Both the position numbers and the translations under genes were made by a program. A stretch of 35,650 nucleotides of DNA, from assembly GCF_000378205.1 (NCBI RefSeq), contig NZ_KB899435.1, forward strand, positions 1 to 35,650, read 5' to 3'. How positions within the stretch are numbered: the first letter of the stretch is position 1; every line of letters begins with the position of its first letter. The stretch comes from Sediminispirochaeta bajacaliforniensis DSM 16054. GTDB lineage: Bacteria; Spirochaetota; Spirochaetia; DSM-16054; Sediminispirochaetaceae. This document shows, in pieces, positions 19,354 to 35,169 of the stretch. The notes below the pieces were generated by a model that was given only the letters and a program-made list of their open reading frames with translations, was not told where the DNA came from and did no database searches.

Positions 19354-19605
19354 ATGCCGCGTTATAAAGAAATGTTTTCATTATATCCAAGAAACACTTC
19401 AAAGGGTAAAACAGTCTTCTATTACCGTACCTATGATGAAGGCAGCAGGCGTACTAAACGATATCCTGCCGAAGTTCAAGGAAGCGGTTAGAAGAACTGA
19501 AGATTCAGGCCGTCGTAGGGCATAAGGATAACTGCATGACGGATAAATATTCTCACTTCCGACTTCAGGACTTCAGTGCTGTTCTGGACGTACGGCGGAG
19601 ATATT
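19354..19605 (+). pseudogene. Tyrosine recombinase (integrase) remnant: N- and C-terminal ends fused by deletion
   Basis: The ATG at 19354 opens 45 codons (MPRYKEMFSLYPRN, GKTVFYYRTYDEGSRRT) ending in TAG at 19489-19491; this is an integrase N-terminal arm-binding start. In another frame, from 19497, the sequence reads LKIQAVVGHKDNC then MTDKYSHFRLQDFSAVL. That is the C-terminal catalytic block of a tyrosine recombinase with the GH pair and the nucleophile Tyr in TDKYSH. Everything between (most of the core-binding and catalytic domain, including both Arg residues) is missing. The gene cannot be functional. It marks the left edge of the AT-rich island and suggests entry as an integrative element later immobilised. 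Confidence 0.8.
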
Positions 19606-19620
19606 CAAAGGAGAGGTTTC

Positions 19621-20163
19621 ATGGGAACAGAACTGAACAATAAACTTTCCAGTATCAAGAAGGAATACTTGGAACTTCCAACCTCTGTTGAACGGATAAG
19701 CTTTCTGAAACAGACAGTAGTAAAGCTTATTCAGGATAATAATGAGAAGTGGCGCAGTATCAGGATCGAAGTGAAGAATGGTGAGCTGAATGCGGAGTCT
19801 GAAACATTGCAGCTGATCCTTGAAGAAGAAAACCTTGCCATTGGTCGGGTTCAGATCTGGCTGATGGATGAAGTAGCTCTGGCTCCAAAAAAAGAGAGCA
19901 GGAATGCGGAAGAACTATCTGATACTGAGCCGGTAAAAACAAATATGGTTCTGGCATCAGAAGCAGGTAAAATGCCTGCTGCAAAGAAGTATATGACCTC
20001 ACAGGATGTTGCGGATTACCTCGGTATTTCTGTTCATACTATTAGGCGTTGGGCTTTGGAACAAAGAATACCTGTAAGCACTCTGAACGGTAAACACAAC
20101 CGCTTTATAAAAGAAGAGATTGACAAGTGGGTACTTGAGAACGGGAAGAAGATGCTTGGTTAA
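19621..20163 (+). CDS. HTH_17/excisionase-like DNA-binding protein with novel N-terminal domain
   Basis: The ATG at 19621 follows AAAGGAG at 7-base spacing and gives 180 residues; a longer reading from 19576 has no ribosome-binding site and overlaps the integrase scrap. The C-terminal 55 residues (KYMTSQDVADYLGISVHTI, RRWALEQRIPV, FIKEEIDKWV) form a MerR/AlpA-like helix-turn-helix of the HTH_17 (excisionase) type. The first 110 residues contain a charged helical stretch and a strand-rich part (WRSIRIEVKNGELNAESETL, LAIGRVQIWLMDE) that I do not recognise. An acidic linker joins the two. It may be a regulator of the defence operon or a former recombination directionality factor of the dead integrase. 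Confidence 0.75.
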   Translation: MGTELNNKLSSIKKEYLELPTSVERISFLKQTVVKLIQDNNEKWRSIRIEVKNGELNAESETLQLILEEENLAIGRVQIWLMDEVALAPKKESRNAEELSDTEPVKTNMVLASEAGKMPAAKKYMTSQDVADYLGISVHTIRRWALEQRIPVSTLNGKHNRFIKEEIDKWVLENGKKMLG

Positions 20164-20205: not shown

Positions 20206-20234
20206 TTGCCAGTTGTCGTCGGAAGGAATATACT
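20206..20234 (+). promoter_or_regulatory. Promoter of the BREX/Septu operon
   Basis: TTGCCA (20206-20211) and TATACT (20229-20234) are 17 bases apart. The predicted transcription start is at about 20241, inside the tandem repeats described separately. The leader is about 60 bases and ends with AAAGGAG before the ATG at 20303. Confidence 0.55.
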
Positions 20235-20263
20235 AAACCGAGTTAAACCAAATTTGACCGAAT
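20234..20263 (+). repeat. Three tandem 10-bp direct repeats at the BREX promoter (candidate operator)
   Basis: TAAACCGAGT, TAAACCAAAT and TTGACCGAAT follow one another without a gap; each matches the consensus TAAACCGAAT at 8-9 of 10 positions. They begin at the last base of the -10 box and cover the expected transcription start. One-turn spacing on one DNA face suits cooperative binding by a small HTH protein, so repression by one of the two flanking HTH_17 proteins is a plausible inference. Confidence 0.5.
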
Positions 20264-20302
20264 GGAACTGATACACATGATTCAGCAAAGGAGCCCTGCG
20301 CC

Positions 20303-20500
20303 ATGGAAGAAAGATGGTTGTCTGTAGACGAAATTGGTGAATATCTCGGAATAAAGCGAGATACAGTCTATAAGTGGATAGCAGAGAAGAAAATGCCTGC
20401 GCACAGAGTCGGTCGGTTCTGGAAGTTCAAAGTAAAAGAAGTGGATGGGTGGGTTCGGAAGGATAATGCTGGTGATGGTACAGGGACAGCAGACAATTGA
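20303..20500 (+). CDS. Small excisionase-family HTH protein, first gene of the BREX operon
   Basis: This 65-residue protein is little more than one HTH_17 domain: WLSVDEIGEYLGIKRDTVYK then WIAEKKMPAHRVGRFWKFK and VDGWVRK. The VGRFWKF strand pair is the wing typical of AlpA/excisionase-like proteins. AAAGGAG lies 9 bases before the ATG. Its TGA stop overlaps the TTG start of brxF (TTGA), so it is translationally coupled to the defence operon. It could be an autoregulator acting on the tandem repeats just upstream, or a captured excisionase. BREX regulators described elsewhere (BrxR, WYL type) are a different family. Confidence 0.8.
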   Translation: MEERWLSVDEIGEYLGIKRDTVYKWIAEKKMPAHRVGRFWKFKVKEVDGWVRKDNAGDGTGTADN

Positions 20501-20910
20501 AAGATTATCAAGACAAAATGGAGAACTTGTATTACAAGATCTCCATAATAGGCAGCAAGTATAAGACCGCTTTCCTAACAAGTATTCCCGCAGAAAGAGC
20601 CATAAACATTAATGCTCTTGTATGCCAGGAGGACTATCCTGCATCGGAATTAAACTTTGAACAAATATTTTCGAGAAACATAGATTCAAAACTGAATTTC
20701 ATATGTCTCTATAATTTTGAAATCCTTTTTCGACCTGAATACCGGTTTGACCTTCTATCGTTTATTAAGGGAAAATCAAAAACTAAGAAATTTGCCATTA
20801 TCTGGCCAGGAGAAATCCAGAATGATCAGCTGGTATACAGTAGACCAGGACGACCAGATTATTACACGCATAACATAGACAATTATCTCATATATAAGGA
20901 AGAGCAATGA
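20497..20910 (+). CDS. brxF: BREX-3 protein BrxF (Walker A not recognisable)
   Basis: The product has 137 residues from TTG 20497 (coupled to the upstream stop) or 130 from ATG 20518. The second half fits BrxF as I know it: NFICLYNFEILFRPEYRFDL (Walker B-like strand), IWPGEIQNDQLVYSRPGRPD and DYYTHNIDNYLIYKEE. Position and size immediately before brxC also fit type 3 BREX. BrxF is normally described as a P-loop protein, but the N-terminal half (SIIGSKYKTAFLTSIPAE) has no GxxxxGK[ST]; only a shortened GSKYKT is seen. It overlaps brxC by ATGA. The identity rests on context plus the C-terminal pattern. Confidence 0.7.
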   Translation: MKDYQDKMENLYYKISIIGSKYKTAFLTSIPAERAININALVCQEDYPASELNFEQIFSRNIDSKLNFICLYNFEILFRPEYRFDLLSFIKGKSKTKKFAIIWPGEIQNDQLVYSRPGRPDYYTHNIDNYLIYKEEQ

Positions 20911-23900
20911 AGTACAAAGACTTAATCCAATTTGACCCAATCGAATCAGTTATTACTCTGACAGAAGCTGACAATGAACAGAAGGCTGCTGATTTAGTAA
21001 AAACCTTCGTTGTCTCCCAATCCATGGAGATCAATCTGAATGAAATTATTATCCCTAATCTTCAGTTTGAAACGCCTCGTGATCAAAAAGGGATATTTGT
21101 TGTAGGTAACTATGGTACCGGTAAATCTCACTTGATGGCATTTATATCAGCCTTGGCTGAAAATAAAGACTATTTGGACTTGGTTGGTAATTTATCTGTC
21201 AGAGAACAGGCTGCACAAATAGCAGGGAAGTTCAAAGTTATCCGCTCCGAGCTTGGTGGTGTTTCCACAACTTTACGTAATGCGATTTGTATGGAGCTTG
21301 AAAAACACCTGAAATCATTGGGAATCAATTTCACATTCCCATCTACAGATAAGATCGCCAACAATAAGGATTCCATCCATGAGATGATGGCTCTGTTTCA
21401 GGAAAAGTACCCTGACCAGGGTCTTTTATTGATACTCGATGAGCTTTTGGACTTCCTTCGGGGGCGCGAAGATGACCAGAAACTCATCCAAGACCTAGGT
21501 TTTCTCCGTGAAATTGGAGAAGTTTGCAAGAACTCTCGGTTTCGGTTTATCACAGGGGTCCAGGAATCCCTGTTTGAGAGTCCCTCTTTCAAATTTGCAG
21601 CTGATTCTTTAGGGCGAGTGTCAGAACGTTTTATTCAGGCAACGATTCAGAAAGAAGATGTAAGCTTTGTTGTATCGGAACGTCTCCTTAAGAAAACTCC
21701 CGAACAGAAGGCAAAAATCCGGGAGCACCTGGAACAATTCCAGCCGTTCTACAAACCCCTATCCGGCGGCCTCGATAATTATGTGGATCTGTTTCCTGTT
21801 CATGAGCAGTACTTTGAGAAATTCCAGATGGTCAACATTGGTGAGCAGAGGAAGATTCTTGAAGCTATTAGCAAAAAAATAGAGTCTATTCTGGAACTTG
21901 AAGTACCAGAGAAAGAAACTGGTATTTTCTCCTACGATTCCTATTGGAAAGTGATTATGGGCGATCATACCAACCGGGTAAATCCTGATGTTCGCAAGGT
22001 TATTGAGATAACAGAACGGGTGGAAAATATACTTGATGAATCCTATGAAGGATCGAAAGAGCAGGTACATGTAGCTCAGAAGATCATCTCAGCATTGGCG
22101 ATTCACCGTTTGACAACAGGAGACTTAAAAGCAGCAGTCGGATTAACCGCTGAGAACCTGAAGGATGAACTCTTTCTTTATCTCACTGTCCCTGAGAAGG
22201 ATGAAAACTTTCTTCTGACCATCATTCAGAAGGTCATCAAGAACATTATGACCACCCTTAACAGTTTGTATATCAGATTGAACGAAGAGAACCGACATTA
22301 CTACATCTACACAGACATGGGTAAAGACCCGAATCAGGAAATTCGGAATAAGGCCAGTAAGCTTTCTGCTGATAAGGAACTGACACGATACTACTTTGAG
22401 ATTCTCTCGCTTATTATGGAGCAGACTGATGTCACCTATCGTACTGGCTTTAAGATTTGGGAATATCCCTTGATGTGGTACCAAAAGAAATCTGAGATTG
22501 ACGGATATCTGTTTTTTGGAAATCCCAATGAGCGGTCAACAACTCAGCCTCCCAGAGAGTTCTATCTTTATTTCATCGATCCTTTCCGGCAGAATACCAC
22601 CGTGTCTTCGGGCAAAGATGATGAAGTGTTTATTCAATTGAAGGACGTTGATGATGACTTCGAAAAAAACTTGCGTCTCTATGCAGCTGCAAAAGAGCTA
22701 AGTTTAACAGCAGTCCAGGAGTACAAAACTGTCTATAATCAATTAGCACAGAAATACCAAAGAGAATTATTGAGCTGGTTGAAAAACAATATATCCGACC
22801 GTTTTCAGATTTCCTATAAAAACAGTACGAAGCTTTTCAAGACATGGTCTGCCAGTATCAACTTGAGAGAATTATCTGGTATTAGTGGTTCCGAGACTCT
22901 TTCATTCAAACAACAGATTGATACTCTTGCTTCAGGATTGTTGTCAGATTACATAGCAGATCAAAAGCCGGATTACCCGGAATTCTCTATCAAGATAACG
23001 AACCAGAACAGGCGTCAGACAGTTCAGGAAGCATTGAGAGCTGTTGTAAGGGGCCAAAGCAGTGGTCAGGCGAATGCGGTTCTATCTGCCCTGGACCTGC
23101 TCTCCGGTGAAGGGATTTCAGTAGAACATGCATCGATTTGCAGTGAAATTCTTGCCATCGTGAACTCAAAAGAGTCGAGTCAGGTAATCAATAGAAATGA
23201 GCTGGTCTCTGAGCGCAATGACAAAGAGTATATTTTGAATGGCTCTCTGGAAATTGATTTTCTACCCGTTTATCTGGCAGCCTTGATTAGTGAAGGATAC
23301 ATTAACCTCTCTGTAGGATCAGATCGGTATACAGCATCCAATCTTGATTCTCTTCTTTCCATTGGCTTTAATCAGATTCTTGATTTTAATCATATAAAGA
23401 AGGCTGAAGATTTCCCTCTTGTCGAGTTAAAAGAATTGTTCACCGCTTTGAAACTCCGCCCCGGTTTGATAGTACAGACCAGTACTCGAAAAGAAGCCGT
23501 CAAAGAACTTATTGATAAAGTGGATGCCCTGCTCAAGCAATGTGCCAAAGTGGAACAGAAGATCCGAAACGGCTTTGTTATCTGGGAACAGAAATTACTC
23601 TCAGAGAGTAGGTCTCAGAAATATATCGACTCTCTCGGTGAAGTCAAAGATTTTATGGAACTTATCTCCCGATACAACACTCCCGCCAAGATAAGCAACT
23701 TCAAAAAGACAACCGATGAGATAGATGCATTCAAAGAGAAGTTAGGGTTGATAACAGAAATAGAAGGGATGGAAGCCTTTGTACAAAATTTTCAGCCCCT
23801 TACCAATTATCTATCCAGGGCAGAAAGTGAAGTTCCCAATGAAGCAAAGTGGAAAGAGGATTACAACAATCTGAGAACAGATTTCACAAATAAGATAGCA

Positions 23901-24632
23901 ACTGAAGAACCATGGAAATCGAGTGATTCTCAGAGTGCATTGCGAACACAGATGCAGGCTCTGAAGGACCGTTACAAAGATGATTATATGGAGATCCATA
24001 AGCACTATCGATTAGGTCCGAAGGCTCAAGAGAAAAAGGAAGCTTTTCAACGAGATAGTCGTCTTGAGAGTTTAAGAGCATTGAGTACTATTGAATCGCT
24101 TCCTTCCCACCAACTTCGAAACTGGGAAGATACCCTTGTTTCTTTAAAGAATTGTACGCTTCTGACCATGGCCGACCTGGATAATTCACCAAAGTGCCCT
24201 CATTGTAGTTTTGAGAGGAAAAGTATTGATGAATCGAGCGTCAGTGCTGACCAGAGGATTCAGGTATTGGATTCTGAGCTGGATGATCTTTACAGCAATT
24301 GGAAATCGTTTCTGAAAGATGAAATGGAAGACCCCACGATCCAGGTGAATCTCGACCTCTTGGGAGATAAAGATTCAGCAACAGTAATAAAAGATTTTAT
24401 CAATGGAGGAGACTTGCCGGAAGTTATTTCTCCGAAGTTGATTCAAGCCATCAAAGATGTTCTGAAAGGCTTGGAAAGAGTTTCCATGAAGCAGGAAGCA
24501 TTAGTAACAGCACTTAACAAAACGGGTCTTCCTGTAACGCCCAATGAATTGAGAGAGCGCTTTGAATCTTATCTGAAAGGGATCATTGCTGGTAAAGAAG
24601 AAAAGCAGATAAGAATAGTGATCGAGGAGTAA
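20907..24632 (+). CDS. brxC: BREX-3 large ATPase BrxC (DUF6079/PglY-like)
   Basis: A P-loop ATPase of 1241 residues. Walker A GNYGTGKSHLM lies at about residues 67-77 and Walker B LLLILDELLDFL at about 172-183, followed by a sensor-like RFITGVQES. The middle and C-terminal parts are long and helical, with coiled-coil-prone stretches, and a CPHC knuckle lies at about residue 1097. Size, Walker A placement and order (after brxF, before the methyltransferase) match the BrxC/PglY family of type 3 BREX, an essential ATPase of the complex that recognises and blocks phage DNA. AAGGAAG precedes the ATG. The Septu pair follows after 3 bases, which is where pglXI would normally stand. Confidence 0.85.
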   Translation: MKYKDLIQFDPIESVITLTEADNEQKAADLVKTFVVSQSMEINLNEIIIPNLQFETPRDQKGIFVVGNYGTGKSHLMAFISALAENKDYLDLVGNLSVREQAAQIAGKFKVIRSELGGVSTTLRNAICMELEKHLKSLGINFTFPSTDKIANNKDSIHEMMALFQEKYPDQGLLLILDELLDFLRGREDDQKLIQDLGFLREIGEVCKNSRFRFITGVQESLFESPSFKFAADSLGRVSERFIQATIQKEDVSFVVSERLLKKTPEQKAKIREHLEQFQPFYKPLSGGLDNYVDLFPVHEQYFEKFQMVNIGEQRKILEAISKKIESILELEVPEKETGIFSYDSYWKVIMGDHTNRVNPDVRKVIEITERVENILDESYEGSKEQVHVAQKIISALAIHRLTTGDLKAAVGLTAENLKDELFLYLTVPEKDENFLLTIIQKVIKNIMTTLNSLYIRLNEENRHYYIYTDMGKDPNQEIRNKASKLSADKELTRYYFEILSLIMEQTDVTYRTGFKIWEYPLMWYQKKSEIDGYLFFGNPNERSTTQPPREFYLYFIDPFRQNTTVSSGKDDEVFIQLKDVDDDFEKNLRLYAAAKELSLTAVQEYKTVYNQLAQKYQRELLSWLKNNISDRFQISYKNSTKLFKTWSASINLRELSGISGSETLSFKQQIDTLASGLLSDYIADQKPDYPEFSIKITNQNRRQTVQEALRAVVRGQSSGQANAVLSALDLLSGEGISVEHASICSEILAIVNSKESSQVINRNELVSERNDKEYILNGSLEIDFLPVYLAALISEGYINLSVGSDRYTASNLDSLLSIGFNQILDFNHIKKAEDFPLVELKELFTALKLRPGLIVQTSTRKEAVKELIDKVDALLKQCAKVEQKIRNGFVIWEQKLLSESRSQKYIDSLGEVKDFMELISRYNTPAKISNFKKTTDEIDAFKEKLGLITEIEGMEAFVQNFQPLTNYLSRAESEVPNEAKWKEDYNNLRTDFTNKIATEEPWKSSDSQSALRTQMQALKDRYKDDYMEIHKHYRLGPKAQEKKEAFQRDSRLESLRALSTIESLPSHQLRNWEDTLVSLKNCTLLTMADLDNSPKCPHCSFERKSIDESSVSADQRIQVLDSELDDLYSNWKSFLKDEMEDPTIQVNLDLLGDKDSATVIKDFINGGDLPEVISPKLIQAIKDVLKGLERVSMKQEALVTALNKTGLPVTPNELRERFESYLKGIIAGKEEKQIRIVIEE

Positions 24633-24635
24633 TGT

Positions 24636-25910
24636 ATGAATATTCAGAATTTATCACTTAAATATTTCCGCGGTATCAAAAAAATGGAAATATATCTGAA
24701 TAAGCAGTTAAATGTTATCTGTGGAATCAATGGTGTAGGGAAAAGCAGCATACTCGATGCTATTTCTATCCAGTTATCATGGATAGTCGCAAGAATCCGT
24801 TCAGAGAGAGGTTCTGGGAGACCTATCAGCGAATATGACATAAAGAATAATGCAAATTTTTCGATGAGTGAGATGCTTATTGAAGAGCATAATAAACAGT
24901 ATAAAGGCAAATTAGTAAAAACAAAGAAAGGCTATTCAGTTGATGAAAAATCAAGTGTATTGGAATTATCAAATTATGCAAAAGAAATCCGGTCCTATAT
25001 TACTGATAAGGAAGAGCAAGTTTCAGTCCCTGTATTTATTTATTACAGTACAAATCGTATTGTAGATGACATCCCATTACGTATTAGAAGTAAGCATGAT
25101 TTCAACCTTTTGGAAACCTATGACAACTCTCTGGAAACTGGAGTCAATTTTCGAAGTTTCTTTGAATGGTATAGAAATCGGGAAGATTTAGAAAATGAAA
25201 AGTTCAGAGATTTGAATCAAGATAATTTATTCAATCAAGAGAAAAGAGCATATGAAGGGGATAAGCAGTTAGAATCAGTCCGTATTGCAATAGAACGAAT
25301 ATCCGGGTTTAAAGATATATCTGTGAAACGAAGTCCACTTCGAATGGAAGTAAACAAGAATGGAGAAAAACTTAGAGTAGAAAAACTATCTGATGGTGAA
25401 AAATGTCTTTTTGCAATGGCGGGGGATATGGCACGACGTTTAGCGATAGCTAATCCGACTTTGGTAAATCCGCTTGAAGGTGAAGGAGTTGTTCTTATTG
25501 ATGAAATAGATTTACATCTTCATCCTAAATGGCAGAAAAAGATCATTCCTAATTTACTTCAAACTTTTCCCAACGTTCAATTCATTGTCTCAACACATTC
25601 TCCGCAAGTTTTAAGTGAAGTTGATCATCGCTCTATTATCCTACTTTATCAGGAAGAAAATAATATCAAATATTCCCCTGTGCACCAAAGCAAAGGCCTG
25701 AGTTCAAATGAAATCCTCGAAGAAATTATGGACACCCAGCCCTTGAATAAGCAAGTAAAAGACCAACTGGATAATATTTTCAAACTGATTGATGATGAAA
25801 AAATAGCCGAAGCGAAAAAAGAAATTAGTGATTTCAAGAATCAATATGGCACCGTTCCTGAAATAGTAAGAGGAGAAACTCTCCTTTCTTTCTTTGATGA
25901 GGAGTCTTAA
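24636..25910 (+). CDS. ptuA: Septu PtuA-like AAA/ABC-type ATPase
   Basis: The product has 424 residues with an SMC/RecF-like ATPase layout: ICGINGVGKSSILDA (Walker A, residues 30-37), an insertion of about 200 residues, the ABC signature KLSDGEKCLFAMAGD (about 250) and Walker B GVVLIDEIDLHLHPKW (about 284), then FIVSTHSPQVL (H-loop). This is the OLD/PtuA-type ATPase found with an HNH partner in Septu systems and as effectors of some retrons. GAGGAG lies just upstream of the ATG and the nuclease gene follows after 3 bases. It is more AT-rich than the BREX genes by eye, consistent with separate acquisition. Confidence 0.85.
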   Translation: MNIQNLSLKYFRGIKKMEIYLNKQLNVICGINGVGKSSILDAISIQLSWIVARIRSERGSGRPISEYDIKNNANFSMSEMLIEEHNKQYKGKLVKTKKGYSVDEKSSVLELSNYAKEIRSYITDKEEQVSVPVFIYYSTNRIVDDIPLRIRSKHDFNLLETYDNSLETGVNFRSFFEWYRNREDLENEKFRDLNQDNLFNQEKRAYEGDKQLESVRIAIERISGFKDISVKRSPLRMEVNKNGEKLRVEKLSDGEKCLFAMAGDMARRLAIANPTLVNPLEGEGVVLIDEIDLHLHPKWQKKIIPNLLQTFPNVQFIVSTHSPQVLSEVDHRSIILLYQEENNIKYSPVHQSKGLSSNEILEEIMDTQPLNKQVKDQLDNIFKLIDDEKIAEAKKEISDFKNQYGTVPEIVRGETLLSFFDEES

Positions 25911-25913
25911 GGG

Positions 25914-26579
25914 ATGATCAAGATCAATAAAGGCTCATCTCCATCAGAGTTAGATCAATATAAGCGTGAATGCTCAGAATCAATTTCCAGGGGGACAACG
26001 AAACTACTCGATGATTTCTCTCGTAAAGACGATTTAAGAATATCATTGGCTGAAGAGCAGGGTTATCTTTGTGCCTATTGCATGCAGAGAATCAATCCTG
26101 AAAATGGCGATACTAAAATAGAGCATTTTCATCCCCAGACTGAGTATCCGACAGAGCAGCTGGATTATTCAAATCTTCTTCTTTGCTGTAATGGTAATCA
26201 AGGAGATCGTCCTGCTAATCAGCATTGTGATACGAAAAAGAAAAATGCTGAGATAAAATATAACCCCGCATTAAGTCCCTCAATAGAGCAGACTATTCGT
26301 TATGAAAGAGATGGGAAAATTGTTTCTGATGATGAAGATTGGAATAACCATATAGATAACGTCCTTAATTTGAATTATTCAAGGTTACGAGAAAATCGAG
26401 AATCTGTTTTAAGGGCTGTAGACCAGGCACTTGCCAAGAATTCCGGTATGAGATCAAAATCTCAAATTGATACAATCATTCAGAATTGGAAAGCCAAGAA
26501 TAGTTCTGGTGAATTAAAAGAGTATTGTGGTGCAGCCATTTATCGATTACAAAAACACCCTGCGTATAAGAGAGGATAA
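25914..26579 (+). CDS. ptuB: Septu PtuB-like HNH endonuclease (TIGR02646 type)
   Basis: The 221-residue protein has the HNH zinc-finger pattern of the PtuB/retron-effector family: CAYCMQRI (about residue 52), KIEHFHPQ (about 69), SNLLLCCNGNQG (about 84) and HCDTKKKN. The paired CxxC, the EHFHPQ histidines and the downstream Asn are the expected metal and catalytic residues. With the PtuA-like ATPase it forms a Septu module that degrades nucleic acid on phage infection. No reverse transcriptase lies nearby, so this is Septu rather than a retron effector. The stop is 6 bases before the pglXI start. Confidence 0.85.
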   Translation: MIKINKGSSPSELDQYKRECSESISRGTTKLLDDFSRKDDLRISLAEEQGYLCAYCMQRINPENGDTKIEHFHPQTEYPTEQLDYSNLLLCCNGNQGDRPANQHCDTKKKNAEIKYNPALSPSIEQTIRYERDGKIVSDDEDWNNHIDNVLNLNYSRLRENRESVLRAVDQALAKNSGMRSKSQIDTIIQNWKAKNSSGELKEYCGAAIYRLQKHPAYKRG

Positions 26580-26585
26580 CTATAG

Positions 26586-29372
26586 ATGAGTGACCAATTT
26601 GATTTTTCAGTAGATAAAGGGCCTGTAGAATGTCTGGGGAAGACTTTTCAGAATGATGAAGAACGACGCAACTACTTCACAGAATTACTCAGAGAGAAAT
26701 TGAAAGATCCTGAATTCAGATCCATAGAAGGATTTCCTCTCGGAGAAGATGAAGATATTCTGGCTCTTTCTGATCCTCCTTACTATACGGCATGTCCAAA
26801 TCCCTGGATGGGCGAATTTATAGAACAGTGGGAACAAGAAAAGCCAACAAAGCAGGAAGGATATAAGTACCATAGAGAACCATTCGCCGCTGATGTAAGT
26901 GAAGGGAAAAACGATCCAATCTATAATGCCCACTCCTACCACACTAAAGTTCCTCATAAAGCTATCATGCGATATATCCTTCACTATACGGAGCCTGGAG
27001 ATATTGTTTTTGATGGATTTTGTGGGACAGGAATGACTGGTGTAGCTGCACAAATGTGCGGTGATATCGGTACTGTCCAATCTTTGGGTTATCGAGTTGA
27101 AAGAGATGGAACCATATTGCAGGAAGAGACTGATGAAGAGGGAAAGAATGTTTGGAAGCCTTTCTCAAAACTTGGTGCAAGAAAAGCAGTTCTGAATGAC
27201 CTTTCTCCAGCAGCAACCTTTATTGCCTACAACTACAATATTCCTGTTGATATTGTCCAGTTTGAAAGGGAAGCCAAACGGATTCTGGATGAAGTGGAAG
27301 AAGAGTGTGGCTGGATGTATGAAACGATACATACTGATGGAAAAACTAAAGGAAAGATAAATTACACGGTTTGGTCTGATGTGTTTGTTTGTCCTTCATG
27401 TGTAAATGAGGTAGTTTTCTGGAATGAAGCTGTTGATCAAAAGGCCGGAAAAGTTAAGGATTCATTTCCATGCCCTCATTGTCATGCAGAAATGACTAAA
27501 CAAAATATGGATAGGGCTTGGGAAACATTCTATGATTCAGCTCTTAATGAAAATATAAAGCAAGCTAAGCAAGTTCCTGTACTCATAAATTACTCCATAA
27601 ATGGTTATAAAGGAAGATTTGAAAAGAAACCTGATGAGTTTGATTATGAATTGATTGAAAAAATTGATCAGAAAGAAATCCCTTATTGGTTTCCAACGAA
27701 TCGTTTACCAGATGGATATAATACAAGGCAACCGATTCGTTCACATGGTATTACTCATATGCATCATTTTTATACGAAGAGAAATCTTTGGACATTAGCA
27801 AGTATTTATAATCGAAGTAATCCCAATTTCTATAGCTCCCAATTGGCAATGTGGTGGACCTTAACGAAACTATACAGGTATAGATGGGCTGGAGGTGTAC
27901 CTGGCGCTGGAGGAGGACCGATGGCTGGAACTTTATATATTCCATCTATTATAAAAGATATTTCAGTTCTTTTTTCAGCAAAGGATGTGTTTAACAAAAG
28001 TATCAGGAAAAAGAAATTATTATCAAATCTCAATTTTCAACCGATATCTACTCAATCATCAGAAAACAATAAGATAAAAAATGATACATTAGATTATATT
28101 TTTATTGATCCCCCATTTGGTTCAAATCTGAATTATTCTGAGCTCAGTTCTCTATGGGAGTCTTGGCTTAAAATTATGACGAATAATACTTCTGAAGCTA
28201 TCGAAAATTCAGTTCAAGAAAAAGGTCCAGCCGAGTATAGAAGCATCATGACTTCTTGTTTTAAGGAAGCATACCGTTTACTTAAACCTGGAAGATGGAT
28301 GACTGTAGAGTTTTCAAACACCAAAGCCAGCGTTTGGAATACTATTCAAACAGCATTAACTGATGCAGGGTTTATTGTATCCAATGTAGCTGGTCTTGAT
28401 AAAAAACAAGGGAGTATTAAGGCTGTTACTACATCAACGGCTGTAAAAAAAGATTTGGTTATTTCAGCCTACAAACCTAACGGAGGCTTTGAAGACCGTT
28501 TTATAAAAGAAGCTAATTCAGAAGACGGAGTCTGGGATTTTATAGGAACCCACCTCAAATATTTAATTGTCACAAAGAAAAGTGGGGCCAATTTAGTTCA
28601 TATACCAGAACGAGATCCTCGAATTCTTTATGACCAGTTAATTTCCTACTATGTCCGAAAGGGTTACAACATTCCTCTATCCAGTCAGGAATTTCAGAAA
28701 GGATTGGCTGAACGCTTTGAAGAACGAGATGACATGTTCTTTCTTCATGATCAAGTTGTAGAATACGATAAAGCTCGTGCCAAATTTTCTGGCCAGGTTC
28801 AACTATCTCTCTTTGTTGATGATGAGAAATCAGCCATTGATTGGCTTAGAGATTATCTGAAAAGAAAACCTGGAACTTATTCAGATATACATCCCAATTT
28901 TATGCAGCAGATGTCAGCAAATAGCTGGAAAGCTGGCGAAAAACAACCAGAACTACAGGACCTCTTAAACCTGAATTTTTTACGATATGACGGTAAAGAT
29001 GAAGTACCCTCACAGATACATTCTTACCTCTCAACAAACTTCAAGGATTTGAGAAAATTAGATAAGAATGATGAAGCATTAAAGGCGAAAGCCAAGGATC
29101 GTTGGTATGTTCCTGATCCGAATAAAGAAGCAGACCTGGAAAAGGTTCGTTTGAAATCTCTGCTTAAAGAATATGAAGGATACAAAGAGGGTAAAGGCAA
29201 GCTGAAAGAGGTTCGCCGGGAAGCTCTTCGTGCCGGATTCAAACAGGACTATCAGAATAAAAACTTTAACAACATTATGCTCATTGCCAAACGCCTGAAG
29301 CCTGAAATCATCGATGAAGATGAAACTCTGCTCATGTACTTTGATTATGCCAGCATGGTGGTTGAGGACTGA
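26586..29372 (+). CDS. pglXI: BREX-3 adenine-specific DNA methyltransferase PglXI
   Basis: A methyltransferase of 928 residues. SAM-binding motif I is VFDGFCGTGMTGVAA (about 138-152) and the catalytic motif IV is FIDPPFGSNLNYSE (about 505-515). An insertion of roughly 350 residues separates them and carries two zinc knuckles, CPSC (about 268) and CPHC (about 295). Later motifs include RLLKPGRWMTVEFSNTKASV. In BREX the PglX-type enzyme methylates adenine in a short asymmetric host site, marking self DNA and setting target specificity; the C-terminal 300 residues probably hold target recognition. It ends 2 bases before the brxHII GTG start. A DUF1156-type orphan methylase was considered, but the operon context favours PglXI. 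Confidence 0.82.
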   Translation: MSDQFDFSVDKGPVECLGKTFQNDEERRNYFTELLREKLKDPEFRSIEGFPLGEDEDILALSDPPYYTACPNPWMGEFIEQWEQEKPTKQEGYKYHREPFAADVSEGKNDPIYNAHSYHTKVPHKAIMRYILHYTEPGDIVFDGFCGTGMTGVAAQMCGDIGTVQSLGYRVERDGTILQEETDEEGKNVWKPFSKLGARKAVLNDLSPAATFIAYNYNIPVDIVQFEREAKRILDEVEEECGWMYETIHTDGKTKGKINYTVWSDVFVCPSCVNEVVFWNEAVDQKAGKVKDSFPCPHCHAEMTKQNMDRAWETFYDSALNENIKQAKQVPVLINYSINGYKGRFEKKPDEFDYELIEKIDQKEIPYWFPTNRLPDGYNTRQPIRSHGITHMHHFYTKRNLWTLASIYNRSNPNFYSSQLAMWWTLTKLYRYRWAGGVPGAGGGPMAGTLYIPSIIKDISVLFSAKDVFNKSIRKKKLLSNLNFQPISTQSSENNKIKNDTLDYIFIDPPFGSNLNYSELSSLWESWLKIMTNNTSEAIENSVQEKGPAEYRSIMTSCFKEAYRLLKPGRWMTVEFSNTKASVWNTIQTALTDAGFIVSNVAGLDKKQGSIKAVTTSTAVKKDLVISAYKPNGGFEDRFIKEANSEDGVWDFIGTHLKYLIVTKKSGANLVHIPERDPRILYDQLISYYVRKGYNIPLSSQEFQKGLAERFEERDDMFFLHDQVVEYDKARAKFSGQVQLSLFVDDEKSAIDWLRDYLKRKPGTYSDIHPNFMQQMSANSWKAGEKQPELQDLLNLNFLRYDGKDEVPSQIHSYLSTNFKDLRKLDKNDEALKAKAKDRWYVPDPNKEADLEKVRLKSLLKEYEGYKEGKGKLKEVRREALRAGFKQDYQNKNFNNIMLIAKRLKPEIIDEDETLLMYFDYASMVVED

Positions 29373-29374
29373 TA

Positions 29375-32170
29375 GTGAAATACTCCATTGGAGAACTGGT
29401 ATGGTCCAGGCAGCATAAGAAAGAAGCAAAAATACTCAGTTCTTCAGAACTCTGGGACAAGGTATCCTATGAGATTCTAATTCCAGAAGAGAAAGAGATT
29501 CTTTGGGTTCAGGAAGAGGCTCTCAAGGAATTGCAGTCAGGGAGTCAAACCTCTCACCACATCGGATTCCTTGCTGCTGCGGCAAAGATTCAGGACACAC
29601 TCGGGCAGAATGTGCTGGTATCACCCTTTGAAGCTCCTGTTATTCCTCTTCCTCATCAGCTGAAATGCCTCAAAAGAGCAATGGAGAAGGACACTGTACG
29701 TTACTTGCTGGCCGACGAAGTGGGTTTAGGGAAGACCATCGAGGCTGGACTCATCCTTCGTGAATTGAAAAGCCGGGGATTGGTTAAGCGTATTCTGATA
29801 GTTGCACCGACAGGTTTAGCCTACCAGTGGGTAGCAGAAATGGAATCCAAATTTTCCGAGAATTTCCATCTGCTACAGCCCCAGGGATTTAATCAGTTGC
29901 GTGAATCAGGTTTTGTTGAAGAAAATCAGAATATTTGGGAAGTTCACAACCAGGTTGTCTGTACTCTCGATTCAGTAAAACCCTTGGAAGCACGTCAGGG
30001 TTGGTCTCAGGAGAAGGTTGATGACTACAATCAAGAGCGTTTTGACAGTCTTGTTTCTGCCAACTGGGATTTGATTATTATAGATGAAGCCCACCGTCTT
30101 GGAGGTAGTGCCGATACCGTAGCCCGTTATAAATTGGGAGAAGGTTTATCCAATGCCACACCTTATATATTGCTTCTATCTGCAACACCCCATCAGGGGA
30201 AAAGCGATGCCTTCTGTCGTTTAATGTCTTTTCTCGATAAAGAGACCTTCAGTGACGAAAGTAATATCTCCCATTCTACCGTAAGACCCTTTGTTATCAG
30301 GACCGAGAAAAGACTGGCTATCGATTCGGAGGGAAAACCTCTCTTTAATAAACGGCAGACAAAGCTGATCTCTTCCATGTGGGGAGCGGCTGATACACTT
30401 CAAGCTTCACTGTATAACAGTCTGACCGACTATGTTCGCTTGGGATATAAATATAACAAAGCGCTCTCAGAAAAGCAGACCGCCTACGGTTTCCTTATGG
30501 TTCTGTTACAAAGAATGGTTCTGTCCAGTACCAGAGCCATCAGAGGAACCCTGGAAAGAAGACTTGAACTTCTTAGAGGACAAAAGCAGGCTGGTAATCA
30601 GATCGTTCGGATGAATGAAGAGTGGAACTTCGAAGATGATTTTGATGATCAGGATGATTTATTATCCATCAATCTGAAAGAACTGGATAAAGAGATCCAA
30701 GAGGTTGAACTACTCGTGAACCTTGCCAAGGAGAGTGAAAATCACGGACCGGACCGTAAATTCTTTGACCTGATATCCATAATGCACAAGAAACAACAGG
30801 AAGAAGATGGGGCGGTCAAAATCCTCATATTCACAGAATTCGTAGCCACCCAGGAGATGCTTCGGGAGAATCTGACGGAAAGGGGATACTCCGTTGAAAC
30901 CTTAAACGGTTCAATGGACATGGATGAAAGAAAAGCTGCTATCAGACTGTTTGCCGACCAAGTTCAGGTTCTTGTTTCCACTGAAGCCGGTGGTGAGGGT
31001 TTGAACATGCAATTCTGTCATGTGGTTATCAACTATGACATTCCCTGGAATCCGATGAAACTGGAACAGAGGATAGGAAGAATTGACAGAATTGGTCAGA
31101 GCAAAATAGTTGAAGCATACAACCTAACAATTGCAGATACCGTAGAAGACCGGGTCCGTGAAGTAGTTGAGAGTAAACTTGAAAAAATCCTCCATGAATA
31201 TGGTGCGGATAAGCTATCTGATGTACTGGATTCAGAATCTACAGATTCAGATTTCAACAGGATATACACGGCTGCAATAGTTGATGAATCGACGGCACTG
31301 CAAGATGTCGACAAGCTGATTGACCAGATCAAGCGGATGATGAAACAGAAACGCAATTCCAATGCAGTACTTGGTTCCACTGGTTCTATGGACCCCGGTA
31401 TAGCAAAAGAGATAGAACAGCATCCTATTGGTTTCTGGATACAACAGATGGTTATTAATTATCTAAAGTGGAACAACCAGAACAATGCACGGATAGAAGA
31501 GGGAAAGACCGGCTACAACATCTACTGGCCCGATGGAGACTATTCTGAAGAAGTCACCTTTGATAGAGTTATATCAGATACCTACAGTCTTGATTTGCTC
31601 TCTCTTGAGAGCAGTATTATTCAGGAGTTATTGGAAAAGAGTACTCCTCTGCCGGAAAGTAAGTCCCTTCCTGTGGTTATCATTCCCGAAATCTCCAATG
31701 TCGTTGAAGGTGTATGGTCTCTATGGCAAGTCACTCTCTATTCAGATAGAAATAAACTCGTCCGATACTTTCCTCTATTTGAGAGCAAAGAAGGGAAGTT
31801 CTTTAAACCGTCTGCAGAGAAAATATGGAGTGCTCTACTATCAGGACAATCTCAATTTCAACAGGACCAAAAATCCGCTGATCTGAATCCCTCGAAGAGC
31901 AAAGCCCTGGAACAGGGGCAGCAATACTATCAATTGCTGCAAACAAAGCATGAAGAGCTGATAAACCGGAAAATCAAGAGTAAGGAGTTACTCTTTTCTG
32001 CAAGACAGAGAGCTATCAAACAGATCGGTCTGAATACTGTTCGGAACCACAGGCAGAAACAACTGAATCTTGAAGTTGAATCCTGGCAGGAAGAACTGGT
32101 TTACCTGAAACAATCTGCCCCGAAACTGGAAAATCTGATAGCTCTGTATGTGGGGAAGAGTAATGATTAG
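29375..32170 (+). CDS. brxHII: BREX-3 SNF2-like DEAH helicase BrxHII
   Basis: This 931-residue SWI2/SNF2 superfamily helicase has LADEVGLGKTIEAGLILREL (motif I, about 112), ILIVAPTGLAYQW (Ia), LIIIDEAHRLGG (DEAH, about 236) and LLLSATPHQGK (III). The C-terminal RecA lobe has ILIFTEFVATQEML, STEAGGEGLNMQ (about 539) and LEQRIGRIDRIGQ (about 565), as in DrmD/HepA-type helicases. The last 250 residues are helical with a coiled-coil-like end. Such helicases occur in DISARM and in type 3 BREX; the neighbouring brxC and pglZ decide for BREX. The start is a GTG with GAGGA upstream; the stop region overlaps the pglZ start by 8 bases. Confidence 0.85.
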   Translation: MKYSIGELVWSRQHKKEAKILSSSELWDKVSYEILIPEEKEILWVQEEALKELQSGSQTSHHIGFLAAAAKIQDTLGQNVLVSPFEAPVIPLPHQLKCLKRAMEKDTVRYLLADEVGLGKTIEAGLILRELKSRGLVKRILIVAPTGLAYQWVAEMESKFSENFHLLQPQGFNQLRESGFVEENQNIWEVHNQVVCTLDSVKPLEARQGWSQEKVDDYNQERFDSLVSANWDLIIIDEAHRLGGSADTVARYKLGEGLSNATPYILLLSATPHQGKSDAFCRLMSFLDKETFSDESNISHSTVRPFVIRTEKRLAIDSEGKPLFNKRQTKLISSMWGAADTLQASLYNSLTDYVRLGYKYNKALSEKQTAYGFLMVLLQRMVLSSTRAIRGTLERRLELLRGQKQAGNQIVRMNEEWNFEDDFDDQDDLLSINLKELDKEIQEVELLVNLAKESENHGPDRKFFDLISIMHKKQQEEDGAVKILIFTEFVATQEMLRENLTERGYSVETLNGSMDMDERKAAIRLFADQVQVLVSTEAGGEGLNMQFCHVVINYDIPWNPMKLEQRIGRIDRIGQSKIVEAYNLTIADTVEDRVREVVESKLEKILHEYGADKLSDVLDSESTDSDFNRIYTAAIVDESTALQDVDKLIDQIKRMMKQKRNSNAVLGSTGSMDPGIAKEIEQHPIGFWIQQMVINYLKWNNQNNARIEEGKTGYNIYWPDGDYSEEVTFDRVISDTYSLDLLSLESSIIQELLEKSTPLPESKSLPVVIIPEISNVVEGVWSLWQVTLYSDRNKLVRYFPLFESKEGKFFKPSAEKIWSALLSGQSQFQQDQKSADLNPSKSKALEQGQQYYQLLQTKHEELINRKIKSKELLFSARQRAIKQIGLNTVRNHRQKQLNLEVESWQEELVYLKQSAPKLENLIALYVGKSND

Positions 32171-33590
32171 TTTAGAAGATAAAATCAAAGAGGCTTTTTC
32201 AATTGATCTTATCGGAACAATACCTCTTTCCATCATCAAGACATCTCAAACCGTAATCGACACATTTGATATATCCGGCTTTTTAACACACAGAGGATAT
32301 ACCGTTTTACATAATGACCAGTATCTTCAATTCAGATGTACTTATGAAACCCTGTATCGTCAACGATTGGAAACAGGAGACCTGGAAGGATTCTCTTTGG
32401 TCATTATCACAACCGACTCTTTAGACCAGCTTGACTTTGATATCCTTGAACAAGCAGAAAGGGAATACCGGGTATTTGATTACTCTTTCTCTCAGGTATT
32501 TCCACCAGAGATTTCAGCTATTGAGAATCTGTTATCTCAAGTTCCCAAAGAAGCTGATGAGTGGATAAATTTTGCTCAGGAACTGGGGATACTTCTCTAT
32601 CAATTTCGTAAGAGCGATAAAACTCAAAAGTATGGAAGTCTCCTCATTCAATTATTGAATAAATCCAATGCGGCATTCTCAAAATGGTGTGATTCCCACT
32701 ATTCACTGATGCTTAATGCTTCCTATATCAATCCTAAAACACTGAACAATATTCTCCCTTATTTAGCCTATAAGAGGAGGAAAAAGGATATCGATAAAGT
32801 CGCTTTGCTCGTGTTTGATGGGATGTCTTTCGACCAATGGGAAATTATAAAGAGAGAGATAACCAATTTAACTACAGACTTGATTGAAGAAAATGGCATC
32901 TTCGCTATGATTCCTACTCTGACAAGTGTTTCAAGACAAGCTATTTTTTCAGGGAAGTTACCAAAAGACTACAGCCAATCTATCAATACGACTCAGAAGG
33001 AGAAGGATTTCTGGGAGAAGTTTTGGGCAGAAGAGAAACATCAAAGCATAAAGTTTATTAAACCCAAAGAAGATTTTCAGGAACAGATTGAAGAATTAAA
33101 AGCAAGTATTAAGGATAATCGCATCAAGATTATTGGAACAACTTTTTTAATCGTAGATGAACTCATGCATAAAATGAGCCAGGGCTACTCCCAGATGTAT
33201 AACAGCATTGTATTATGGCTAAGACAAGGCTATTTCAAAGATACCATTAAAGAGCTAATGGAAAATGATTTTGATATCTATATAACCGCGGACCATGGCA
33301 ACATAGAGGCCTTACCAGGACGGAAACTTAATGAAGGAATCCTTGTAGACACCAAGGGACAAAGAGTTCGAATTTATGACAGGGAATCAGCACGCGAAAA
33401 AGCCATGTCGAATTACGAGGAACTGATTAAAATAGAATCTGAAAAATATGCTCTTCCTGATAATTACTATGCCGTTGCTCAGAGCAACGCTGAGTATTTT
33501 GGGAAAGCAGGTCCAGTGATAACACATGGAGGTTTATCTGTTCAGGAAGTTCTTGTTCCTTTTATCCATATCAAGAAGGAGCAAAAGTAG
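32163..33590 (+). CDS. pglZ: BREX alkaline-phosphatase-superfamily protein PglZ
   Basis: From ATG 32163, overlapping the helicase stop (ATGATTAG), the product has 475 residues; an in-frame ATG at 32148 adds 5. The alkaline-phosphatase-fold core shows KVALLVFDGMSFDQWEII (metal-site Asp, about 217), IPTLTSVSRQAIFSGKLP (nucleophile region), YITADHGNIEALPG (metal site, about 374) and VITHGGLSVQEVLVPFI (about 453). PglZ is the hallmark of all BREX types; its biochemical role is debated (metal-dependent nuclease/phosphodiesterase or scaffold). The N-terminal part is much smaller than in type 1 PglZ (about 800+ residues), fitting type 3 or a reduced variant. It is stop-start overlapped with the next gene (TAGTG). 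Confidence 0.85.
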   Translation: MISLEDKIKEAFSIDLIGTIPLSIIKTSQTVIDTFDISGFLTHRGYTVLHNDQYLQFRCTYETLYRQRLETGDLEGFSLVIITTDSLDQLDFDILEQAEREYRVFDYSFSQVFPPEISAIENLLSQVPKEADEWINFAQELGILLYQFRKSDKTQKYGSLLIQLLNKSNAAFSKWCDSHYSLMLNASYINPKTLNNILPYLAYKRRKKDIDKVALLVFDGMSFDQWEIIKREITNLTTDLIEENGIFAMIPTLTSVSRQAIFSGKLPKDYSQSINTTQKEKDFWEKFWAEEKHQSIKFIKPKEDFQEQIEELKASIKDNRIKIIGTTFLIVDELMHKMSQGYSQMYNSIVLWLRQGYFKDTIKELMENDFDIYITADHGNIEALPGRKLNEGILVDTKGQRVRIYDRESAREKAMSNYEELIKIESEKYALPDNYYAVAQSNAEYFGKAGPVITHGGLSVQEVLVPFIHIKKEQK

Positions 33591-34312
33591 TGGCATTACG
33601 AGAAAAGACAATAGGTTATGATAGGCTTCTTAAAAATGATTTACTTAACAAAGTAGCCTACTTTGTAGGAGATGGAAATAATCCCGAAGACGTTAAGTCC
33701 AAACTCAGGGCTTCATTTGAAGACCAGACAAGTGATGCGCTACGAAAGACAATAAATCTGCTGATGGGAATATGGTCTACTGTCCCTGAAGAGATAGTGC
33801 CCTTAAGAGACCAGGCTATAAAACTTTTTTTAAAGGCATATGATTCAGAGAAGCGGATTATCCACTACTTCATGAGTATGGCCAATTATCCTTTTTTCTT
33901 TGATGTATGTCTACTCACAGGAAGAGCGCTACGCTTATCAAATTCTTTTACATCAAGACAAATCCTAACAAAGATTCAGGAAAAGTGGGGAGATCGTAGT
34001 ACAACCATCAGGGCCGTTCAAAGAACCTTGAAAACCATCGAGCAGTGGGGCTGGCTGAATAGCACTAAACAGAGAGACTACTCATTAAATGATGCTGGAA
34101 TGAAAACTATCATTCCTAAGGAGTGGCATGGCTTTATCGCCAATTGTGTTCTGTTTGGCTCATTAAGGAGCTCAATGCTCATTGAAGAGATAACCCAGAA
34201 CCCCAGCCTCTTTCCGTTTCACATTGAGTTTAATATCCATGAAATGAAACAATGGAATGGAATCCGGTTGGAGCAAAGAGGTCGTGGGGATCTCCTGGTA
34301 AGTTTGAAGTAG
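33590..34312 (+). CDS. brxA: BrxA-like small BREX protein, last gene of operon
   Basis: The GTG at 33590 overlaps the pglZ stop and gives 240 residues. The protein is helical, with a winged-helix-like stretch in the second half (SFTSRQILTKIQEKWGD, TTIRAVQRTLKTIEQWGWL). BrxA (DUF1819) is a small DNA-binding helical protein that ends the brxF-brxC-pglXI-brxHII-pglZ series in type 3 BREX, and this gene has that place and about that size. The DUF1819 pattern is only loosely visible, so the name depends mainly on position. The C-terminal segment (EMKQWNGIRLEQRGRGD) looks basic and could contact DNA. Confidence 0.55.
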   Translation: MALREKTIGYDRLLKNDLLNKVAYFVGDGNNPEDVKSKLRASFEDQTSDALRKTINLLMGIWSTVPEEIVPLRDQAIKLFLKAYDSEKRIIHYFMSMANYPFFFDVCLLTGRALRLSNSFTSRQILTKIQEKWGDRSTTIRAVQRTLKTIEQWGWLNSTKQRDYSLNDAGMKTIIPKEWHGFIANCVLFGSLRSSMLIEEITQNPSLFPFHIEFNIHEMKQWNGIRLEQRGRGDLLVSLK

Positions 34313-34498: not shown

Positions 34499-34822
34499 AT
34501 GAAAACTACAGAATCGGATAAAGAACTGCACAAACAAATGTGGAAAGAAAGCGGATTGAGTAAAGCGGCCTATGCCAGAGAAAGTGGTCTGAACACCCAA
34601 ACCTTCTACAGCTGGTTCTATACCGAAGGGCTAAAGAGAGAAAAAAAACAAAACACATTTGTTGAAATTGTCACTGAGAACGATGCCCAAGGTAAGGAAA
34701 ATGAACATCGCCGCTCGATGACAATTGGGATCACCTTACCAAATGGCTACAATCTTATCATTTCCTCAGGCTTTCAAACGCATACACTGAATGCAGTACT
34801 TGATGTGTTGGAGGGCCGCTGA
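34499..34822 (+). CDS. tnpA: IS66 TnpA (IS3-like HTH accessory protein)
   Basis: The ATG at 34499 follows GGAGGAG at 3-4 bases and gives 107 residues; the longer in-frame reading from 34388 lacks a ribosome-binding site. The N-terminus is a helix-turn-helix (MWKESGLSKAAYARESGLNT, QTFYSWF) as in IS66 TnpA, followed by a basic linker and ITLPNGYNLIIS near the end, the usual C-terminal strand. Its stop overlaps the tnpB start (TGATG). Confidence 0.85.
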   Translation: MKTTESDKELHKQMWKESGLSKAAYARESGLNTQTFYSWFYTEGLKREKKQNTFVEIVTENDAQGKENEHRRSMTIGITLPNGYNLIISSGFQTHTLNAVLDVLEGR

Positions 34823-35169
34823 TGTTTGCTGATCTGTCTCGAGTAAAACTATTTGTAAAGCCCGGTGCAACAGATATGCGGAAACAACAAGCCGGACTGT
34901 CGGCGGTAGTACAGAACATTATGCAAGCTGATCCGTTTACCGGAAGCCTTTACTTGTTTTGCAATCGAAAGAGGAACCTATTAAAGATTCTCTATTGGGA
35001 GACTAATGGTTTTTGTGTGTGGCAAAAACGCCTTGAACAAGGCACATTCCCCTGGCCGAAGGATGAGGCAGAGGCCCGGGAGATAAATACCCGCCAACTG
35101 CGATTACTGCTTGAAGGACTTGATATTTGGCGTGCTCACAAAAGAATAAATTACACAGAAGTGGCTTAA
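34822..35169 (+). CDS. tnpB: IS66 TnpB (Orf2)
   Basis: The 115-residue product matches IS66 Orf2 closely: VKLFVKPGATDMRKQQAGLS, DPFTGSLYLFCNRKRNLLKI, LYWETNGFCVWQKRLEQGTF and the closing LRLLLEGLDIW. It appears intact in length. TnpB is required for IS66 transposition, but its biochemical role is not settled. Translational coupling to tnpA is evident from the TGATG overlap. Confidence 0.93.
   Translation: MFADLSRVKLFVKPGATDMRKQQAGLSAVVQNIMQADPFTGSLYLFCNRKRNLLKILYWETNGFCVWQKRLEQGTFPWPKDEAEAREINTRQLRLLLEGLDIWRAHKRINYTEVA

Follow-up and report, generated by a model that had tools for sequence, protein, structure and literature searches.

A 10-bp direct-repeat array at the promoter of a BREX-3/Septu operon, the probable operator of a small BldC-like repressor

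To our knowledge, the control of large, costly, and sometimes toxic defense operons is mostly unknown beyond WYL-type regulators (BrxR/CapW), CapK/S, C proteins, and RptR. Promoter control of a defense island by three direct repeats is already known from RptR, the autorepressor of type I restriction-modification (RM) defense islands in Escherichia coli, whose three repeats lie over the -10 box (PMC12255303). BldC of Streptomyces multimerizes head to tail on direct repeats of 9 bp (PMC5859096; PDB 6AMA/6AMK). RdfS binds 40 bp as a tetramer, at about 10 bp per protomer (PMC11963761), and does so without a clear consensus motif, so the strength of sequence reading varies within this fold.

Here, we analyze a Spirochaetota locus, contained in a 35.65-kb stretch of DNA (hereafter, the window), in which a small helix-turn-helix (HTH) gene, H65, heads a defense operon. 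The complete BREX type 3 set is present, in order and in one operon (brxF, brxC, pglXI, brxHII, pglZ, and brxA; PADLOC and Pfam). The relevant features are as follows, with the evidence in parentheses.

19621..20163, + strand: 180-residue protein with a C-terminal HTH_17 domain, judged to lie outside the circuit (Pfam; its G101 homolog overlaps an intact integrase gene)
20206..20211, + strand: -35 box TTGCCA (promoter scan; 10/12 jointly with the -10 box)
20229..20234, + strand: -10 box TATACT, after a 17-bp spacer (promoter scan; same adjacency in homologs)
20234..20243, + strand: putative operator unit 1, TAAACCGAGT (sequence; kept in L049 and L116)
20244..20253, + strand: putative operator unit 2, TAAACCAAAT (sequence)
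20254..20263, + strand: putative operator unit 3, TTGACCGAAT (sequence)
20287..20293, + strand: ribosome-binding site AAAGGAG, 9 nt upstream of the start codon of H65 (sequence)
20303..20500, + strand: H65, a 65-residue HTH_17/BldC-like winged-helix protein, the putative repressor, encoded first in the operon (Pfam HTH_17 1.7e-15; PADLOC mad1 2.6e-11; AF2 model)
20497..20910, + strand: brxF, whose start overlaps the end of H65 by 4 bp (PADLOC BrxF 5e-15)
20907..24632, + strand: brxC (DUF6079) (Pfam, PADLOC)
24636..25910, + strand: ptuA-like ATPase gene (Septu), within the BREX operon (PADLOC PtuA 1e-147; same place in L003)
25914..26579, + strand: ptuB-like HNH gene (Septu) (PADLOC PtuB 3e-69; same place in L003)
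26586..29372, + strand: pglXI methyltransferase gene (PADLOC PglXI)
29375..32170, + strand: brxH helicase gene, in the brxHII position (PADLOC BrxHI/BrxHII)
32148..33590, + strand: pglZ, lacking the N-terminal portion of the PADLOC profile (Pfam, PADLOC)
33590..34312, + strand: brxA (PADLOC BrxA 4e-48)

Three tandem 10-bp units, TAAACCGAGT-TAAACCAAAT-TTGACCGAAT, can be read head to tail at 20234-20263, with pairwise identities of 8/10, 7/10, and 7/10. The best promoter of the region in a promoter scan is a sigma-70-like TTGCCA-17-TATACT (20206-20234; 10/12 matches), and unit 1 begins on the last base of its -10 box (20234). Transcription would be expected to start at about 20241, which would place the array at about -8 to +22, across the -10 box, the expected start site, and beyond. 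An earlier note on this DNA had described a triple 10-bp array at the -10 box and predicted start, next to a small HTH_17 gene at the beginning of a BREX operon. Its coordinates and units are exact, and both the small gene (20303-20500) and the BREX-3 genes are confirmed. An alternative downstream promoter at 20254-20281, with TTGACC of unit 3 as the -35 box and CATGAT as the -10 box, scores only 9/12.

Only one position in the window reaches 22/30 or more in pairwise scoring of 3 x 10 tandems. The period-10 score of the array was reached by 0/3000 dinucleotide shuffles of the intergenic region; with all periods from 8 to 13 allowed, 0.17% of such shuffles attained the same fraction. In the whole 4.57-Mb genome, two adjacent copies of TWRACCNNRT match perfectly solely at the array; allowing one mismatch adds one match on another contig and one inside brxC. 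This uniqueness fits a local autoregulator. The match inside brxC, TTAATCCAATTTGACCCAAT at 20922-20941, is an operator-like site at the 5' end of the gene. We rejected it as a second operator: it is probably coding sequence, since it is partly retained in L003, where brxF has no H65 gene directly before it.

H65 contains an HTH_17 domain and nothing else (Pfam). Its AlphaFold2 model, built from nine sequences (mean pLDDT 78.5), is a small winged HTH with a beta-alpha-alpha-beta-beta-alpha order. Among its best fold matches are BldC, RdfS (Z 7.8), and lambda Xis (Z 5.5-5.7); for BldC, the Foldseek probability is 1.00 but the E value is 0.03, and the VIA Z of 7.6-7.8 is middling for a small domain. 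A phmmer search against the PDB returned nothing significant, so that sequence similarity to solved BldC-type proteins falls below significance. In its architecture, H65 is BldC-like: a stand-alone MerR-like winged HTH protein of 65 residues (65-70 in this type) with HTH_17 only and no coiled coil, dimerization, or effector domain. The direct repeats are likewise about one turn apart, and the predicted fold superposes. However, BldC is a global developmental regulator that reads 9-bp AATTnnnnC repeats (PMC5859096), whereas H65 is associated with 10-bp units found once in the genome, heads a defense operon, and is only about 20% identical.

The remaining comparisons are more distant. RdfS and Xis have an HTH_17-type fold and form head-to-tail filaments at about 10 bp per protomer (PMC11963761; PDB 8DGL, 4J2N, and 2IEF), but they are partners of integrases at attachment sites, while H65 is linked to defense operons and promoters. 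RptR is also a small first-gene regulator with three repeats overlapping the -10 box, and its binding is cooperative, as that of H65 would be; it differs in being a 79-residue dimer, apparently of another fold, with a 9-bp unit that contains the palindrome TAGCTA (PMC12255303). H65, in contrast, is a winged HTH protein with a nonpalindromic unit, and TAGCTA is absent from the H65 upstream region, whose units are TAAACCGAGT, TAAACCAAAT, and TTGACCGAAT. RptR was not found among the PDB sequence hits or the fold hits of H65, an absence that is no proof of a different fold. The WYL regulators of BREX and CBASS, BrxR and CapW, resemble H65 in that the regulator gene precedes a BREX operon and in repression of the operon promoter, which is proposed for H65 (PMC9122589, PMC9122601). 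BrxR, however, binds a pseudo-palindrome as a large dimer with wHTH-WYL-WCX architecture, and H65 has neither WYL nor WCX and a direct-repeat site. The suggestion that this circuit is unlike WYL-type BrxR control is borne out, since Pfam matches no WYL domain in either H65 or the 180-residue HTH protein. The best PADLOC match of H65 is mad1, the HTH component of the MADS system (E 2.6e-11); this is a family-level match only, and the present operon is of the BREX-3 rather than the MADS kind. We found no description of HTH_17 proteins with direct repeats at defense operons in the open-licence literature, although subscription journals (e.g., on Mad1 in MADS) may hold one.

We find that 10-bp triple tandem repeats are a conserved feature upstream of H65 homologs. 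Homologs were drawn from Spirochaetia, plasmids, Desulfobacterota, Gammaproteobacteria, Chloroflexota, viral contigs, and BREX-3 loci, and the 150 bp before each start codon was scored in a motif-agnostic way (unit number and period only) against 500 dinucleotide shuffles each. Period 10 was strongly enriched among 47 non-redundant homologs (Fisher P = 9e-17; 19/47 below 0.05 and 13/47 below 0.01), while periods 7, 8, 9, 11, 12, and 13 in the same homologs were null (Fisher P = 0.66-0.99), as were 160 control promoters from the same DNA (2/160 below 0.01; Fisher P = 0.71). The result was replicated in 18 hold-out homologs fetched afterwards (P = 1.3e-4) and survived strict dereplication to 27 homologs (P = 2.4e-5), with other periods null in both cases. 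All these P values are indicative and softer than stated, because homologs share descent. The window consensus TWRACCRART was itself enriched at period 10 (Fisher P = 5e-5 in 38 homologs; 1.3e-4 in the hold-out), with null results at the other periods tested. By this simple test, about 60% of homologs lack a significant array, and the H65-led BREX-3 loci L079 and L089 show no clear one. The earlier note had tied its reading to conservation of the repeats in homologous loci; they are conserved, the hold-out agrees, and the controls are null. As for related BREX-3 operons, which it also named, BREX-3 loci alone give Fisher P = 0.017 for the five that are left after strict dereplication, and L003, the closest relative, has no array before brxF.

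The sequence and position of the units are also informative. The TWRACC unit of the window, which starts at the end of the -10 box, is kept in close H65 homologs, with arrays of TAAACCGTGT-TAGACCGAAT-GAGACCTGAT in L049 and TAAACCGAGT-TTAACCTAGT-CTAACCAATT in L116. In L049, the array core is kept although much of the remaining promoter region differs. As in the window, the array starts -2 to 0 from the -10 end in seven loci from Spirochaetota, Desulfobacterota, and Gammaproteobacteria (L049, L050, L068, L073, L076, L080, and L116). Elsewhere, in L047 and in TTGCC-array BREX-3 loci such as L012, it overlaps the -35 box or is located farther upstream. The proteobacterial BREX-3 loci still have 3 x 10 bp, now as TTGCC-based, TTGCCAAT-like units over a putative -35 box, and the recognition helix of their HTH proteins is GRRTVYRL versus KRDTVYKW. 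Such co-change of helix and unit would be expected of repeats that the HTH protein reads, as far as a few lineages can indicate. In L092, L093, L096, and L132, where the helix is SSDTVYRW, 10-bp GGTT/CGG-type repeats overlap the -35 TTGACA box, not the -10 box.

Some arrays depart from the simple arrangement. In some homologs, the motif also scores on the opposite strand (Fisher P = 6e-4), which may reflect a few arrays with inverted units, which would be a misfit with a strict head-to-tail model. L076 and L080 have two direct units followed by an apparently inverted one (TTATTGGGAC, TTGTCAGGAT).

We propose, with a probability of roughly 0.7, that the array is the operator of an autoregulated defense-operon promoter to which H65 monomers bind cooperatively as repressors. 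The autoregulatory-operator part of this reading appears well supported by comparative evidence. We infer H65 as the binder, together with the stoichiometry, the repressive sign, and the trigger of the following model. Each 10-bp unit would be bound by one H65 monomer. As the units are one helical turn apart, neighboring monomers would sit on the same face of the DNA, touch head to tail, and bind cooperatively. Three protomers would then extend from the -10 end across the start site and about 20 bp into the transcribed region; a filament in this position would block RNA polymerase and repress H65 itself along with the whole BREX-3/Septu operon. Such a circuit could hold a costly defense operon at a low steady level, and could allow a burst of expression when the operon enters a repressor-free cell or when H65 is titrated or lost.

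The sign of regulation could be the opposite. Activators exist among MerR-fold proteins, and the array placement on or upstream of the -35 box in L047 and L012-type loci would suit activation by H65, or dual regulation of the kind exerted by the C protein of type II restriction systems. We consider this unlikely, because in the window and seven homologs the array runs downstream from the -10 box, where a bound protein normally blocks polymerase, and because the window promoter is already good (10/12 match, 17-bp spacer). It is more improbable still that H65 is an excisionase (recombination directionality factor), with the repeats as arm-type sites for element movement and regulation secondary. 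HTH_17 does include excisionases, RdfS and Xis are among the closest folds, a decayed integrase lies 0.7 kb upstream, and an integrase or recombinase is found near L045, L047, and L062. Nevertheless, H65 overlaps brxF, its homologs overlap varied defense genes rather than integrases, and the array tracks the -10 box. The integrase-linked gene of this lineage is instead that of the 180-residue protein.

This last protein, or another cellular factor, might itself bind the array, given that it adjoins the repeats and has an HTH_17 domain; the earlier note had named it as a candidate. The remains of a tyrosine integrase gene precede its gene (the pair spans 19355-20163), and in G101 the homologous gene and an intact integrase gene share a 4-bp overlap (L141:2665-4367). 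Thus, the 180-residue protein is most likely a mobile-element gene product and an unlikely partner of the array. It is present in only 4/198 Spirochaetia searched, and searches beside array-bearing H65 loci returned no full-length relatives, only HTH-domain matches to the H65 homologs themselves. Both the presence of an array and the sequence of its units follow H65-type genes, which leaves the 180-residue protein or another factor a very poor candidate. Poorer yet is the idea that the repeat arose by chance or as a by-product of promoter composition: the units are merely 70-80% identical, but the 0/3000 shuffles, the enrichment at period 10 only, the hold-out replication, and the null controls speak against it, and the conservation tests contradict it. 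The G101 integrase/HTH pair shares a contig with an H65-led DUF499 operon.

The autoregulatory reading is not confined to BREX. Homologs of H65 overlap translationally with many different defense genes. The closest homolog (83% identity), in L049, heads a DUF499-DUF3780-DUF1156 methyltransferase-PLD helicase-HerA operon; for the other loci, systems are named from the next gene alone, and comprise BREX-1 (L050, BrxA next), BREX-3 (L076, L079, L089, L090, and L058, BrxF next), a DISARM-like operon (L063, DrmD next), an Hma-like operon (L110, HmaA next), HKD/SNF2 helicase operons (L047 and L116), and type I RM (HsdM-type next gene in 9/51). Conversely, L003, the nearest BREX-3 relative, has a BrxC that is 91% identical and the embedded ptuA/ptuB in common, but neither H65 nor the array before brxF, and its homology with the window begins at brxF. 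These two observations indicate that the repressor-operator pair is a module, not a part of BREX, and it appears to have been exchanged between defense systems. Hence the circuit that the earlier note assigned to the BREX operon can be kept as a probable autoregulatory operator at the promoter, but not as a BREX-specific one, as other defense operons carry the module. In L003, an AbiEi-type antitoxin/regulator gene (L003:4670-5452) occupies the place of H65 just upstream of brxF.

More broadly, we lean toward the view that BldC-like repressors of 60-70 residues and the 10-bp direct-repeat operators of their own promoters form a widespread family, an exchangeable cassette that stands at the start of many unrelated defense operons (BREX-1, BREX-3, type I/III RM, DISARM-like, Hma-like, and DUF499/DUF1156) and is transferred whole among Spirochaetota, Desulfobacterota, Proteobacteria, and Chloroflexota. 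This suggests a widespread, little-described off-switch for bacterial immunity, and a general BldC-like direct-repeat control cassette of defense operons rather than a BREX-specific device. If so, it would be a further class of defense controller, very small and widespread, with a readable operator code, and it would tie the DNA-binding mode of BldC and excisionases to anti-phage immunity. Finding an array together with a small HTH gene could then serve as a simple test for which defense operons stay silent under laboratory conditions, and for ways of activating them for study.

Several further characteristics of the operon were observed. The Septu-like ptuA/ptuB genes (24636-26579) sit between brxC and pglXI, and the same order is seen in L003. 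The pglZ reading frame (32148-33590) aligns only to the C-terminal part of PglZ as profiled by PADLOC, from about position 308 of 666; the first ~120 residues of the frame have no counterpart in that profile, and its start overlaps brxH. Just 3' of the BREX operon, at 34822-35169, lies an IS66-family TnpB gene.
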